Assembly (NCBI GenBank): GCA_903889845.1
Contig: CAISZB010000470.1
Location: 1 to 12,121, forward strand
DNA length: 12,121 bases
Direction of reading: 5' to 3'
Source: an uncultured Verrucomicrobium sp.
Lineage (GTDB): Bacteria; Verrucomicrobiota; Verrucomicrobiia; Methylacidiphilales; GAS474
The translations under genes and the position numbers were made by a program. Under the pieces are notes generated by a model that saw only the letters and a program-made list of their open reading frames with translations, was not told the origin of the DNA and searched no databases. Shown piece by piece: positions 9,200 to 12,121 of the stretch. Each line of letters begins with the position of its first letter. Position 1 is the first letter of the stretch.

Positions 9200-9229
9200 A
9201 TTTTAGGGCCACCACACCAAGCGAGCCAA
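9200..9229 (-). promoter_or_regulatory. Candidate promoter for the small-protein/HDOD/kinase operon
   Basis: On the minus strand TTGGCT (9229-9224, four of six against TTGACA) is followed after 18 bp by TAAAAT (9205-9200, five of six against TATAAT). The -10 box contains the moeA stop codon. The predicted start lies about 60 bp upstream of the 9136 ATG, leaving an AT-rich leader with a run of seven T. The fit is moderate, and read-through from moeA is the alternative. Confidence 0.35.
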
Positions 9230-10432
9230 ATTGTTTTCGGTCCTTGCTCCAGACTTCATCGAAGACCCCGCCCCGGGCATCAGCATCCCGTTGGCTCCCA
9301 AAAGACTGACCAGATGGCCCGAACTCGTCCAGTGCAAAACCCGCACATCCACCCGTCCTGCGTCAATCTGCCAGTGACAGGGATGATAGGTCTCCCGGCC
9401 TCCACTCCCCCGGACCGAAACAGGGGCGTCCCACTCGACCTCGGCCTCCCGCTCCGCCGCCTCCTGCCGCCCCCCCTGCAGAGCCAGGAGTGCCCGCCGG
9501 ACGAAAAGCTGGAACGCCACGTAATGGGAAAGGGGATTCCCCGGCAGGCAAAAGGCGGGGACTCCCTCTTTCAGGGCAAAAATCGTCGGCTTCCCGGGCC
9601 GCATCCCCACCCCGGCGAAGGCGATCCCGAAACCCGCTTCCTCCAAGGTCCGGCGTCCGAAATCGGTCTCCCCCTCCCCGGCTCCTCCCGAAATCAAAAG
9701 CAGATCGCTTCCCTCCGCCGTCGCCTGCCCCACCTCCCGCCGCAGCGCCTCCCCATCGTCCCCCACCCGGACCTGCCGGACCAGCGCCGCCCCCGCCCGG
9801 GCGATCAGCCCGGCGACGAGGCTCGAATTCGAATCGCGGATCTGCCCCGGCCTCGGCGTCCCGTCGGGCGGCACCAGCTCCCCACCCGTCACCACGTGCG
9901 TCACCCGGGGCCGACGCCCCACCCACGGCAACGCCGTCCCGCCCATCGCCAGGACCGACGCCTCCACCGGGCCGACGCGTGTCCCCTCCCCGATCAGGCG
10001 GCCCCCCCGACGATATTCCTCCCCCCGGCGACGCAGGTAGAGCGGGCGTCCCTCCTCCAACGCCCCGGGCGAAAAGACGACCGTTTCCCTCTCCGCCTTC
10101 GACTCCTCCTGCATCACCACCCGGATCGTCCCCTCCGGCACCGCCGCCCCGGTGAAAATCCGGACACACGTCCCGGGCCGCAGCGGGACCTCTCCCGAAT
10201 ACACCTCCCCCGCCCGGACCGATCCGACGACGCGAAAGACCCCCTCCCCCTCTGCCACCGCATACCCGTCCATCGCGGAGCGGTCGAACGCCGGGCTGTC
10301 CGCATCGGCCTCGACGTCCTGGCGGAGCGTCCTTCCCTCGGCCAACGCCGTCTCCAGCGGCACCCGTTCCGGGGGCAACGGTACCACCCCGGAATCGATC
10401 CTCGCCTTCGCCTCCGCAACCGTGATCAACAT
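9203..10432 (-). CDS. moeA: Molybdopterin molybdenumtransferase
   Basis: MoeA inserts molybdate into adenylylated molybdopterin, completing molybdenum cofactor. From the ATG at 10432 the protein is 409 aa, the family length. Visible are PPERVPLETAL (20-30), FDRSAMDGYAV (49-59), RIFTGAAVPEG with Thr94 (91-101), TGGELVPPDG with Glu185 (182-191), and the MoCF core SGGAGEGETD with Asp257 (248-257). GMRPGKP (276-282), LPGNPLS (296-302) and a domain IV (about 321-409) follow. The frame is open to 10525, but the added residues would lie antisense to the riboswitch and do not fit the family, so the ATG is preferred. No Shine-Dalgarno sequence is adjacent; AGGAGG lies 23 nt upstream. No other cofactor gene is present, apart from a MoaD/ThiS-like start on the far side of thrC. 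It is transcribed divergently from thrC. Confidence 0.95.
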   Translation of the reverse strand: MLITVAEAKARIDSGVVPLPPERVPLETALAEGRTLRQDVEADADSPAFDRSAMDGYAVAEGEGVFRVVGSVRAGEVYSGEVPLRPGTCVRIFTGAAVPEGTIRVVMQEESKAERETVVFSPGALEEGRPLYLRRRGEEYRRGGRLIGEGTRVGPVEASVLAMGGTALPWVGRRPRVTHVVTGGELVPPDGTPRPGQIRDSNSSLVAGLIARAGAALVRQVRVGDDGEALRREVGQATAEGSDLLLISGGAGEGETDFGRRTLEEAGFGIAFAGVGMRPGKPTIFALKEGVPAFCLPGNPLSHYVAFQLFVRRALLALQGGRQEAAEREAEVEWDAPVSVRGSGGRETYHPCHWQIDAGRVDVRVLHWTSSGHLVSLLGANGMLMPGAGSSMKSGARTENNLARLVWWP

Positions 10433-10478: not shown

Positions 10479-10616
10479 CTCTTATCGAGAGCGACGGAGG
10501 GACTGGCCCTAAGATGTCGCGGCAACCGGGAAGCGATTTCGATCCCTTCCGACAGGTGCTAATCCCAGCATTGGAGAGGGAAAGAAAGACTTTCCCCGCC
10601 CGGTGAAGGATAAGAG
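10479..10616 (+). ncRNA. SAM-I (S-box) riboswitch aptamer
   Basis: The aptamer binds S-adenosylmethionine and normally turns its gene off when SAM is plentiful. P1 pairs CTCTTATC (10479-10486) with GATAAGAG (10609-10616), eight perfect pairs. P2 pairs GCGAC (10491-10495) with GTCGC (10516-10520) and carries the kink-turn strand GGAGGGA (10496-10502) and loop CTGGCCC. The conserved GGCAACC lies at 10521-10527. P3 pairs 10527-10533 with 10546-10551 with one bulged G, capped by GAT-TTCG-ATC. The signature GGTGCTAATCCC lies at 10555-10566. P4 pairs CATTGG (10569-10574) with CCGGTG (10600-10605), then a 3x3 internal loop, then GGGAAAG with CTTTCCC (10578-10584, 10590-10596). Every core element of the class is present and in order. 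Confidence 0.95.
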
Positions 10617-10751
10617 GTGCGGAAACTTTGGTCGCGGAGCCCCCATGGGATTCCCTCTCGATCGCAGGCTTCCCCTCCTCTCCTCCTTCCCCGTTTCTCC
10701 CATGCCGGGCTTCCCGAGCGGAGGAAAAGCAACCGATTGACGACTAACCAC
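10617..10751 (+). promoter_or_regulatory. Riboswitch expression platform and thrC leader
   Basis: This 135-nt stretch joins the aptamer to thrC. No terminator (stem plus U-run) is visible, so translational control is likelier. TTTCTCC (10694-10700) can pair with the purine-rich GGAGGAAA (10720-10727), enclosing a CGGG-CTT-CCCG mini-hairpin (10706-10716), and would mask that ribosome-binding-like sequence. Separately, CTCT/ATC at 10655-10663 could compete for the 3' strand of P1. A pyrimidine tract at 10671-10690 offers further anti-Shine-Dalgarno pairing. These folds were found by eye. Confidence 0.5.
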
Positions 10752-12017
10752 ATGGGAACGGAATTTTTCAGCAACCTGAAGTGCCGCGAGTGCGGCCGCC
10801 TCTACGAGAAGAAGGCGATCCACGTCTGCGAGTTCGACTTCGGCCCCCTGGAGGCCGCGTACGACTACGCCAAGATCAAAAAGAGCATCAGCCGCCAGGC
10901 CATCGCCACCCGCCCCCACAGCATGTGGCGATACAGAGAGCTTCTTCCCATTGATGGCGACCCCACCGTCGGCCTCCAGGTCGGCTTCACGCCCCTGGTC
11001 AAGGCCGACCGCCTCGCCAAGGCCCTCGGCATCCGGGAACTCTACGTCAAGAACGACGCCGTCAACTACCCCACCCTCTCCTTCAAGGACCGCGTCGTCT
11101 CCGTCGCCCTCTCCCGGGCGCGGGAACTCGGCTTCGAGATCGTCGCGTGCGCCTCGACCGGGAACCTGGCGAACAGCGTCGCCGCCAACGCCGCCAGCGC
11201 GGGCCTCAAGAGCTACGTCCTCATCCCCTACGACCTGGAACGGAGCAAGGTCCTCAACAGCCTCGTCTACGGCACCAACGTCGTCGGCATCCGCGGCGCC
11301 TACGACCAGGTGAACCGCCTCTGCTCAGAGATCGCCGGGAAATACGGCTGGGGCTTCGTCAACGTCAACCTCCGCCCCTACTACGCCGAGGGATCGAAGA
11401 GCATGGGCTTCGAGATCCTGGAACAGCTCGGCTGGAAGTTCCCCCGCCACACCGTCGTCCCGATGGCCAGCGGCTCCCTCCTCACGAAGATCACGAAGTC
11501 CTACCAGGAGGCGATCCAGGTCGGCCTCCTCGACGAGGCCCCCTTCACGATCCACGGCGCCCAGGCCACCGGCTGCAACCCGATCACCGCCGCCTTCAAG
11601 GCCGGGACCGACATCATCCGGCCCGTCCCGAAGCCCGACACCATCGCGAAGTCCCTCGCCATCGGCACCCCCGCCGACGGCTACTACGCCGTCAACGCCA
11701 TCCGCGCCCACGGCGGCGGCTCCGAGGACGTCACCGATCCGGAGATCATCGAGGGGATCAAGCTCCTCGCCGAGACCGAAGGCATCTTCACCGAGACCGC
11801 CGGCGGCGTCACCGTCGCCTGCGCAAAGAAACTCATCGCCTCCGGCCGCATCCCCGCGAACGAGTCGGCCGTCCTCTGCATCACCGGCCACGGGCTGAAG
11901 ACCGCCGAGGCCGTCGCCGACCACATCGGCGCCCCCCGGATCATCAACCCCAGCATGCGCGAATTCGACGGCCTGCTTCACGACAACAGCGACACCCCCG
12001 CCCCTGCCGCTGCCTGA
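10752..12017 (+). CDS. thrC: Threonine synthase family PLP enzyme
   Basis: Threonine synthase turns O-phosphohomoserine into threonine. From the ATG at 10752 the protein is 421 aa. An N-terminal zinc-ribbon-like segment, CRECG (11-15) to HVCEFDFGPLE (24-34), has Cys11, Cys14 and Cys26, but the usual fourth Cys position reads Asp29. The fold-type II core shows the PLP lysine Lys112 in LSFKDR, the CASTGNLANS loop (133-142), MASGSL (238-243) and ETAGGV (348-353). An alternative TTG start at 10737 lies 12 nt after GGAGG and would add MTTNH. Far upstream GTG codons are excluded because they fall inside the riboswitch. The stop is 24 nt before a sulfur-carrier-like gene. SAM-riboswitch control and this neighbour suggest a link to homocysteine/methionine synthesis rather than only threonine. 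The family is secure, the exact reaction less so. Confidence 0.9.
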   Translation: MGTEFFSNLKCRECGRLYEKKAIHVCEFDFGPLEAAYDYAKIKKSISRQAIATRPHSMWRYRELLPIDGDPTVGLQVGFTPLVKADRLAKALGIRELYVKNDAVNYPTLSFKDRVVSVALSRARELGFEIVACASTGNLANSVAANAASAGLKSYVLIPYDLERSKVLNSLVYGTNVVGIRGAYDQVNRLCSEIAGKYGWGFVNVNLRPYYAEGSKSMGFEILEQLGWKFPRHTVVPMASGSLLTKITKSYQEAIQVGLLDEAPFTIHGAQATGCNPITAAFKAGTDIIRPVPKPDTIAKSLAIGTPADGYYAVNAIRAHGGGSEDVTDPEIIEGIKLLAETEGIFTETAGGVTVACAKKLIASGRIPANESAVLCITGHGLKTAEAVADHIGAPRIINPSMREFDGLLHDNSDTPAPAAA

Positions 12018-12028
12018 TTTCAAAAACC

Positions 12029-12036
12029 AAAGGAAA
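12029..12036 (+). promoter_or_regulatory. Ribosome-binding site of the sulfur-carrier-like gene
   Basis: AAAGGA sits 7 nt before the ATG at 12042. It is the clearest Shine-Dalgarno sequence in the window and fixes this start. Confidence 0.7.
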
Positions 12037-12041
12037 CCACC

Positions 12042-12121
12042 ATGCCCACCCCCGTCACCATCCCCACCCCCCTGCGGAACCTCACCGGGAACCAGGAAAC
12101 CGTCTCCGTCGATGGCGCGAC
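12042..12121 (+). CDS. ThiS/MoaD/CysO-like sulfur-carrier protein (partial, C-terminus off the right edge)
   Basis: Only 26 residues are visible. MPTPVTIPTPLRNLTG, then NQETVSVDGA, matches the first strand, the IPTPLR-x-x-TGG-like turn and the second strand of the beta-grasp carriers of the MoaD2/CysO type. These carry sulfur as a C-terminal thiocarboxylate and feed cysteine, homocysteine, thiamine or molybdopterin synthesis. The complete protein would be about 90 aa and end in Gly-Gly, which lies outside the window. It follows thrC by 24 nt with a good ribosome-binding site, so both are probably on the SAM-riboswitch-controlled message. MoeA lies on the other side of thrC on the opposite strand, so a molybdopterin-synthase small subunit is the main alternative. 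The call rests on a short segment. Confidence 0.72.
   Translation, partial: MPTPVTIPTPLRNLTGNQETVSVDGA

Follow-up and report, generated by a model that had tools for sequence, protein, structure and literature searches.

A SAM-I riboswitch ahead of a metM-metO gene pair in a Verrucomicrobium contig: a predicted route from O-phosphohomoserine to homocysteine

The stretch of DNA analysed here, which we call the window, is the whole 12,121-nucleotide contig CAISZB010000470.1 (C470) of an uncultured Verrucomicrobium sp., known from a metagenome-assembled genome (MAG; G000) of 2.89 Mb that is 82.7% complete. Towards the end of the window, all on the + strand, lie an S-adenosylmethionine (SAM) riboswitch aptamer of the SAM-I (S-box) type at 10479-10616, a leader at 10617-10751, a gene for a fold-type II pyridoxal phosphate (PLP) enzyme of 421 residues at 10752-12017, and the 5' end of a gene for a small sulfur carrier at 12042-12121. 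We assign the two genes to the metM and metO types and consider it very likely that their products make homocysteine from O-phosphohomoserine, with a thiocarboxylate of MetO as the likely sulfur donor. The preliminary description of this DNA had recognised a complete S-box aptamer, a ThrC-family PLP enzyme and a carrier-like start 24 nucleotides further on, and all three identifications were confirmed, by RF00162, by PALP and by a profile of relatives' carriers, respectively.

For comparison we used 40 genomes of the order Methylacidiphilales (the window's MAG included), 288 Verrucomicrobiota genomes, and the best 80 of at least 590 stretches returned by a contig scan. The closest relative, G002, belongs to the same genus as the window and is probably Verrucomicrobium sp. 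GAS474.

The metM-type open reading frame (ORF) starts with an ATG at 10752, has its stop at 12015-12017 and matches PALP with an E value of 1.5e-64. Its best Protein Data Bank (PDB) matches are threonine synthases, no MetM being among the PDB matches, and the source records name the metM-type gene 'threonine synthase' in nearly all cases and 'hypothetical protein' in two entries. The NCBIfam threonine synthase model, TIGR00260, does not separate MetM from canonical ThrC. The same MAG encodes, in addition, an intact canonical ThrC of 358 residues (318.5 bits to TIGR00260) on contig C90, where it immediately follows homoserine dehydrogenase; apparent stops inside this gene were dismissed, as they came from the match running beyond its stop codon. 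Across the order, the window-type enzyme is present in 36 of the 40 genomes, 70-91% identical to that of the window (itself excluded), and the canonical type in 38, at 35-40% identity to the window enzyme. Both types occur together in 35 genomes, and the four genomes without the window type are 68-80% complete. At a cut-off of E 1e-90, 12 of the 288 Verrucomicrobiota genomes carry the enzyme, eight from the window's order (its own MAG included) and four others.

In a tree of these enzymes a single branch with a support of 100 divides 90 MetM-type from 15 ThrC-type rows, and the window enzyme falls in the MetM group and outside the ThrC group. The MetM group takes in the actinomycete Nonomuraea and nine cyanobacterial rows, with no Microcystis among these. 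Several long branches meet at the split, making the position of single rows such as Nonomuraea less sure. We defined 29 diagnostic columns as those at least 95% fixed in window-type rows other than the window and present in no more than 10% of ThrC rows. Left out of this definition, the window enzyme carries the MetM letter at 29/29. The corresponding counts were 27 for Nonomuraea, 28 for Xiphinematobacter, 29 for one cyanobacterium and 0 for two canonical ThrC, all of them rows that helped to define the columns. The locus of Nonomuraea gerenzanensis has a SAM-I aptamer, a metM 52% identical to that of the window and a metO ending in AVAGG, arranged as in the window; no NIL-like ORF was seen behind its metM-metO.

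The carrier gene begins with an ATG at 12042, 24 nucleotides past the metM stop, and is cut after 26 codons (MPTPVTIPTPLRNLTGNQETVSVDGA) because the window is the entire contig. This stub matches the profile of relatives' carriers with 28.9 bits, a score that is not independent, as the profile contains that of the closest relative. In G002, where the carrier gene is complete (L050:6608-6880, - strand), the product has 91 residues, matches the Pfam family ThiS with E 3.1e-17 and ends in AIAGG. Its best PDB match is 3dwg_C (E 1e-19), which is CysO. The family is broad, and ThiS, SAMP1 and MoaD models all match. Within the order a carrier is found at 30 of the 33 loci checked, and Gly-Gly stands exactly at its end in 30/30; L031, one of the three loci without a carrier, ends inside metM. 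When four loci from outside the order are added, the counts become 34 of 37 and 33/34, the exception being the carrier of L067, which has a seven-residue tail behind Gly-Gly.

The riboswitch assignment is firm, with RF00162 matched over its full length (model positions 1-108 of 108) at 75.9 bits (E 9.2e-17), against a gathering score of 44.4 bits. This aptamer is the only SAM-I match found in the assembly, for which 150 of 228 first-look candidates were scored. Rfam finds SAM-I at 27 of the 29 order loci, L019 and L020 lacking it; among further genomes it was found in G014, G019, G027 and G029 and not in G009. We rejected one candidate expression platform, masking of the Shine-Dalgarno sequence: GGAGGAAAAG at 10720-10729 pairs in the predicted fold but ends 22 nucleotides before the ATG, which is too distant for such a role to be claimed.

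The pairing of metM with a carrier gene extends well beyond the order. The best 80 loci come from Verrucomicrobiota, Kiritimatiellota, Planctomycetota, Cyanobacteriota, Nitrospirota, Omnitrophota, Elusimicrobiota, Myxococcota, Thermodesulfobacteriota and Pseudomonadota, plus six unassigned loci, and a carrier match is found in 78 of them, over ten named phyla. Using a model built from 18 aptamers, SAM-I was detected upstream of metM in 46/80, including 26/29 loci in Verrucomicrobiota, 6/6 in Planctomycetota, 1/13 in Nitrospirota and 0/9 in Cyanobacteriota; at L098 and L106 it lies more than 1 kb upstream. Its absence from the cyanobacterial loci agrees with a remark on Microcystis in PMC12172450. 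In three loci (L077:5217-5819, L081:4972-5903 and L097:5221-5871), two different carrier ORFs stand in tandem behind metM, the first of which has a divergent end, IIPSIAGG or IIPAFAGG.

We then asked which other routes to homocysteine these genomes encode, using a MetX model (cut-off >300 bits) and PF01053, which covers MetB, MetC, MetY and MetZ (cut-off >100 bits). MetM is present but neither MetX nor PF01053 is matched above these cut-offs in 21/40 order genomes, and 14 of these 21, G002 included, are at least 95% complete. As far as searched, the conventional route is therefore lacking in several near-complete genomes. MetX-model matches >300 bits occur in 9/40 genomes, all of them, like the controls, under the model's own cut-off of 500. 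PF01053 matches below 40 bits are present everywhere and were taken for other PLP enzymes. In G002 this search, which did not include MetA, gave only partial MetX-model matches of at most 25 bits and nothing above 31 bits for PF01053; in the window's own MAG it gave no complete conventional route and no MetX match, only a MetY fragment. The DUF39 (HcyBio) route to homocysteine was rejected, as DUF39 is found in 0/40 genomes of the order.

Several of the partners that such a pathway calls for are encoded. An E1-like enzyme of the ThiF family is found in 39/40 order genomes, and in the window's own genome it is a MoeB-type ORF of 278 residues (L049:1180-2016) that aligns with MoeZ-type models over their adenylyltransferase part only, with no sulfurtransferase domain seen. 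E1 open frames of about 400 residues are usual in the order, and the 278-residue version might reflect a frameshift or work with a sulfurtransferase encoded elsewhere. An E1-type ORF lies within the metM locus in 23/80 best loci and in none of the Verrucomicrobiota loci L068-L097. MetE-like and MetH-like genes are both encoded by the window's genome.

From these components we propose the following scheme. The MoeB-type E1-like enzyme would charge MetO by adenylation and thiocarboxylation. O-Phosphohomoserine, bound to MetM as an aldimine, would lose its phosphate and receive sulfur from the C-terminal thiocarboxylate of MetO to give homocysteine, which a MetE- or MetH-like methionine synthase would then convert to methionine by methylation. 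At high SAM, the riboswitch would close the operon.

A thiocarboxylate route to homocysteine had already been suggested in the preliminary description, and the comparison supports it, though the route is not new. Of the features by which that description proposed to judge it, the Gly-Gly end is exact in relatives' carriers as counted above, the second thrC exists in intact, canonical form beside homoserine dehydrogenase, and the E1-like adenylyltransferase was located in the same genome. In a search that did not include MetA, no complete conventional pathway was found in the MAG, which has a MetY fragment, or in G002. Neither of the two genomic outcomes named there as refuting the idea was observed, as far as the tests went. 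The anticipated Mec/JAMM-type protease failed to appear, as Prok-JAB had no match at E 1e-3 in the MAG, in G002 or in 8/8 genomes of family f8. G001, from the window's genus, has one Prok-JAB match below the cut-off, and 10/40 order genomes have matches above it. We reject a dependence on JAMM in the window's lineage for G002 and family f8. Their carriers already end in Gly-Gly and no JAMM was found there, so that release of homocysteine from the carrier would have to proceed without such a protease.

A MetM/MetO route to methionine was reportedly described in Streptomyces by Hasebe and colleagues in 2024 (AEM e01247-24). The route proposed for the window is this already reported one. In PMC12172450, MetM is introduced as a homocysteine synthase with cyanobacterial homologues, and S. 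albulus metM is stated to have a SAM riboswitch upstream. The window resembles the Streptomyces system in its ThrC-like PLP enzyme, neighbouring carrier gene, upstream SAM riboswitch and O-phosphohomoserine as the predicted acceptor. It differs in coming from another phylum, in which close relatives mostly add a NIL-domain gene, and some distant relatives fuse NIL to the carrier.

Several observations weigh against the homocysteine assignment. The window enzyme scores 279.8 bits with TIGR00260, well over the cut-off of 167.1, and its placement as a MetM relies on the rows from Nonomuraea and the cyanobacteria rather than on S. albulus MetM itself. The Gly-Gly of the window's own carrier lies past the contig end and is deduced from relatives. 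The leader gave fold z-scores of -1.42 and -0.68, neither of which points to a markedly stable fold, and nothing resembling a terminator was found on its + strand, so that no expression platform was found in it. PF01053 matches above 100 bits occur in 16/40 order genomes, eight of which also have MetX, and the MetY fragment of the window's MAG (238 residues, at the end of contig C363, next to a gene that by eye resembles a sulfite/nitrite reductase) makes a second homocysteine route possible in this incomplete genome. The main evidence against a general role of MetM comes from Microcystis aeruginosa, where, according to PMC12172450, a MetO-like gene is beside a ThrC 51.6% identical to S. albulus MetM. 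The paper reports that in vitro this MetM-type ThrC converted O-phosphohomoserine to threonine and also deaminated threonine, that with sulfide it yielded only an unidentified peak near methionine, and that its high expression left cell methionine unraised.

The TIGR00260 score and the in vitro threonine synthase activity of the Microcystis homologue (PMC12172450) would suit a second threonine synthase, with the riboswitch merely balancing the threonine and methionine branches and high SAM lowering threonine synthesis. We regard this as unlikely. The genome already has its canonical ThrC beside homoserine dehydrogenase, many residues conserved in ThrC are replaced in the window enzyme, and the gene is kept where no conventional homocysteine route was detected; furthermore, threonine synthesis has no need of the carrier gene that accompanies metM at almost all of the best loci.

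Another possibility is that MetM combines O-phosphohomoserine with free sulfide and that the carrier serves a molybdenum cofactor, thiamin or tRNA sulfur pathway. The breadth of the carrier family and the missing JAMM match in G002 and family f8 are compatible with this, as is a moeA/glp-type (molybdotransferase-like) gene that lies divergently upstream of the aptamer (9203-10432, - strand). The pairing of metM and metO over ten named phyla and in a symbiont genome of 0.92 Mb, however, is hard to explain unless the two share a function, and we judge this option very improbable. A reading of the pair as a SAM-controlled cysteine synthase of the CysM/CysO type is scarcely credible: the carrier's best PDB match is 3dwg_C and both PLP enzymes are of fold-type II, but the window enzyme is far closer to ThrC, as its PDB matches show, and separate CysM/CysK-like genes (by eye) lie beside metM in L108 and L121.

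The MetM/MetO assignment for the window also has parallels among other carrier-dependent systems. In Mycobacterium tuberculosis, CysO, CysM and Mec make cysteine from O-phosphoserine; the window's system shares with it a carrier ending in Gly-Gly, an E1 of the MoeB/MoeZ type and a fold-type II PLP enzyme, and differs in the ThrC-type enzyme and in the lack of a Mec-type match in G002 or family f8. Wolinella succinogenes is said to use HcyS, HcyD and HcyF together with MetY to supply a protein thiocarboxylate for homocysteine, HcyD being a JAMM protease that trims the carrier. The likeness lies in the protein thiocarboxylate as sulfur donor for homocysteine, whereas the enzyme there is of the MetY type (PF01053) and here of the ThrC type, and no JAMM match was obtained for the MAG, G002 or family f8. 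A protein thiocarboxylate pathway is also mentioned in PMC5764234. The system of DUF39 with NIL/ferredoxin and COG2122, treated in that paper, resembles the present one in involving a NIL domain in a route to homocysteine, but DUF39 itself has no match in the 40 order genomes and the NIL domain here is free-standing or fused to the carrier.

In relatives of the window, metO is followed as a rule by a third gene, which encodes a NIL-domain protein of about 80 residues. It is in the locus at 27/33 order loci, and 35/40 order genomes have a NIL match. In the window's MAG, C470 ends before the expected position and no NIL match was found on the other contigs. In L007, L009 and L010 (G015, G036 and G032, family f9), metO has no adjoining NIL gene, and all three genomes have a NIL match on another contig. 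Among the best 80 loci, the NIL gene lies inside the fetched stretch in 50: Verrucomicrobiota 21/29, Nitrospirota 13/13, Omnitrophota 5/6, Pseudomonadota 3/3, Thermodesulfobacteriota 2/3, Myxococcota 2/3 and unassigned 4/6, with none in Cyanobacteriota (0/9), Planctomycetota (0/6), Kiritimatiellota (0/1) or Elusimicrobiota (0/1). At L071 it is upstream on the opposite strand, and at L106 it precedes metO.

The NIL protein of relatives matches the Pfam family NIL (E 5e-12) and 3dhx_A (E 9.8e-10), and a PDB search with a NIL profile returned, at E <0.001, MetN chains only (six sequences). The structural model of the G002 protein (predicted local distance difference test, pLDDT, 91.7) is closest to the C2 domain of MetN, with a template modelling score of 0.80 to 3dhw_C. 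According to PMC12357092, L-methionine binds the C2 domains of the importer MetNI and inhibits it, and the N295A variant fails to bind L-methionine. The column aligned with MetN N295 holds Asn in 39/42 operon NIL proteins, Ser in two, G002 being one of them, and Asp in one; methionine sensing is therefore likely for most of them and less sure for the window's genus. The operon proteins thus share with the importer domain the fold, the sequence family and, in most cases, the Asn for methionine binding, and differ from it in being free-standing or carrier-fused and, in G002, in the change of Asn to Ser. The NIL protein of most close relatives probably adds methionine feedback at the protein level.

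At seven loci carrier and NIL form a single ORF: L098:6639-7151, L101:5282-5794, L108:5269-5781, L112:5242-5760, L114:5280-5792, L121:5275-5787 and L123:3032-3472, the last cut by the contig end. The internal Gly-Gly is kept in 7/7 and invariant in the six that were aligned. In the model of the L121 fusion, whose overall pLDDT is just 80.6 with six sequences, the stretch 88-92 that holds Gly-Gly is poorly ordered (pLDDT <50) between two folded parts. The arrangement is reminiscent of ubiquitin precursors and predicts a cutting step. Among the papers listed in searches of open-access literature, a scope that does not take in Hasebe 2024, none joined a NIL domain with a sulfur carrier. Within the same scope we found no description of the NIL gene in the metM-metO locus, of the carrier-NIL fusions or of the Xiphinematobacter case discussed below.

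A further 19 carriers have 1 to 20 residues beyond Gly-Gly. JAMM-type ORFs, recognised by their motif and with a profile made from eight motif matches, lie within the locus of 5/7 fused, 4/19 tailed and 2/50 Gly-Gly-ending carriers, that is, 9/26 capped against 2/50 uncapped (Fisher p 7e-4); of the 80 loci, two without a carrier match and two with a truncated carrier were left out of this count. Restricted to loci longer than 9 kb, the figures are 7/18 and 1/27. The JAMM ORF of L121, the sole one checked with NCBIfam, scores 63.5 bits with the desampylase model, below its cut-off of 130. Since the loci are not independent, and a test of independent pairs had just two usable pairs (median p 1), the link between JAMM and capped carriers is suggestive only. 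A JAMM protease may free the C-terminus of the capped carriers, as HcyD does in Wolinella. In L148 (G033:C225) and L149 (G021:C83), of family f2, a JAMM gene adjoins a ThiF/MoeB gene, unlike in most of the order. L140:1024-6929, from Thermodesulfovibrionia, has in one row a hom-like gene (by eye), a TusA-like gene (under model cut-offs), E1, a JAMM-type ORF, metM, metO with a seven-residue tail, NIL and canonical thrC, and hence both ThrC-type enzymes.

MetM is also present in two reduced genomes of 0.92 Mb each, G074 and G093, which belong to one genus. The MetM of G074 (locus L063, G074:C1:450082-454302) and the MetM of Ca. Xiphinematobacter sp. Idaho Grape are 100% identical. Besides metM and metO, G074 keeps a canonical ThrC (34%) and has an E1-like match (62%). 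In the whole genome we found no match for MetX, NIL, MetE or MetH, the MetH/MetE queries being pieces of 826, 337 and 329 residues, and no SAM-I with the aptamer-built model. MetY queries gave weak matches (25-30% over 115-125 residues, E 0.001-0.003), which we took for other PLP enzymes. The G093 locus is likewise without SAM-I and NIL, and neither MetE nor MetH was found in that genome. According to two papers, Xiphinematobacter has kept most of the steps for making essential amino acids, methionine excepted (2015, PMC4607532), or lacks several genes for methionine, histidine and leucine (2021, PMC7857533). On the evidence of gene content, MetM-MetO could supply the missing homocysteine step, and the symbiont may make homocysteine for its nematode host; the final methylation would then depend on the host or on an enzyme that escaped recognition. 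That riboswitch and NIL were lost together while metM-metO stayed fits a regulatory role for NIL. This argument is weakened by L066 and L067, from larger genomes, in which NIL is also missing beside metO though SAM-I is kept.

These features could be joined into a widespread three-part system, with SAM feedback on the RNA and methionine feedback, through NIL, on the enzyme or carrier, the fused carriers of some distant lineages being pro-proteins cut by JAMM and the feedback having been lost in Xiphinematobacter. We put this forward tentatively, as a doubtful extension of the homocysteine assignment. The NIL sensor and the regulatory domain of the methionine importer would go back to a common stock, and in the fused carriers methionine could control whether the sulfur carrier itself matures. 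In Xiphinematobacter feedback would no longer be needed, and riboswitch and NIL would have gone, leaving only metM-metO.

At the other end of the window, dapF and lysA of the lysine branch (within 2-2702, - strand) share the contig with the SAM-controlled methionine-branch gene, and a dapA-like ORF, named by eye, lies at the contig edge in the same interval.

A gene that is named threonine synthase and yet, in this order, looks like the homocysteine synthase could lead automated reconstructions to call methionine auxotrophy wrongly in these bacteria. The NIL gene links MetM/MetO, the DUF39 route and the methionine importer around methionine, and its place at metM-metO makes an old question, the role of NIL domains outside transporters, directly testable. 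For Xiphinematobacter, MetM-MetO is a concrete candidate for the homocysteine step.

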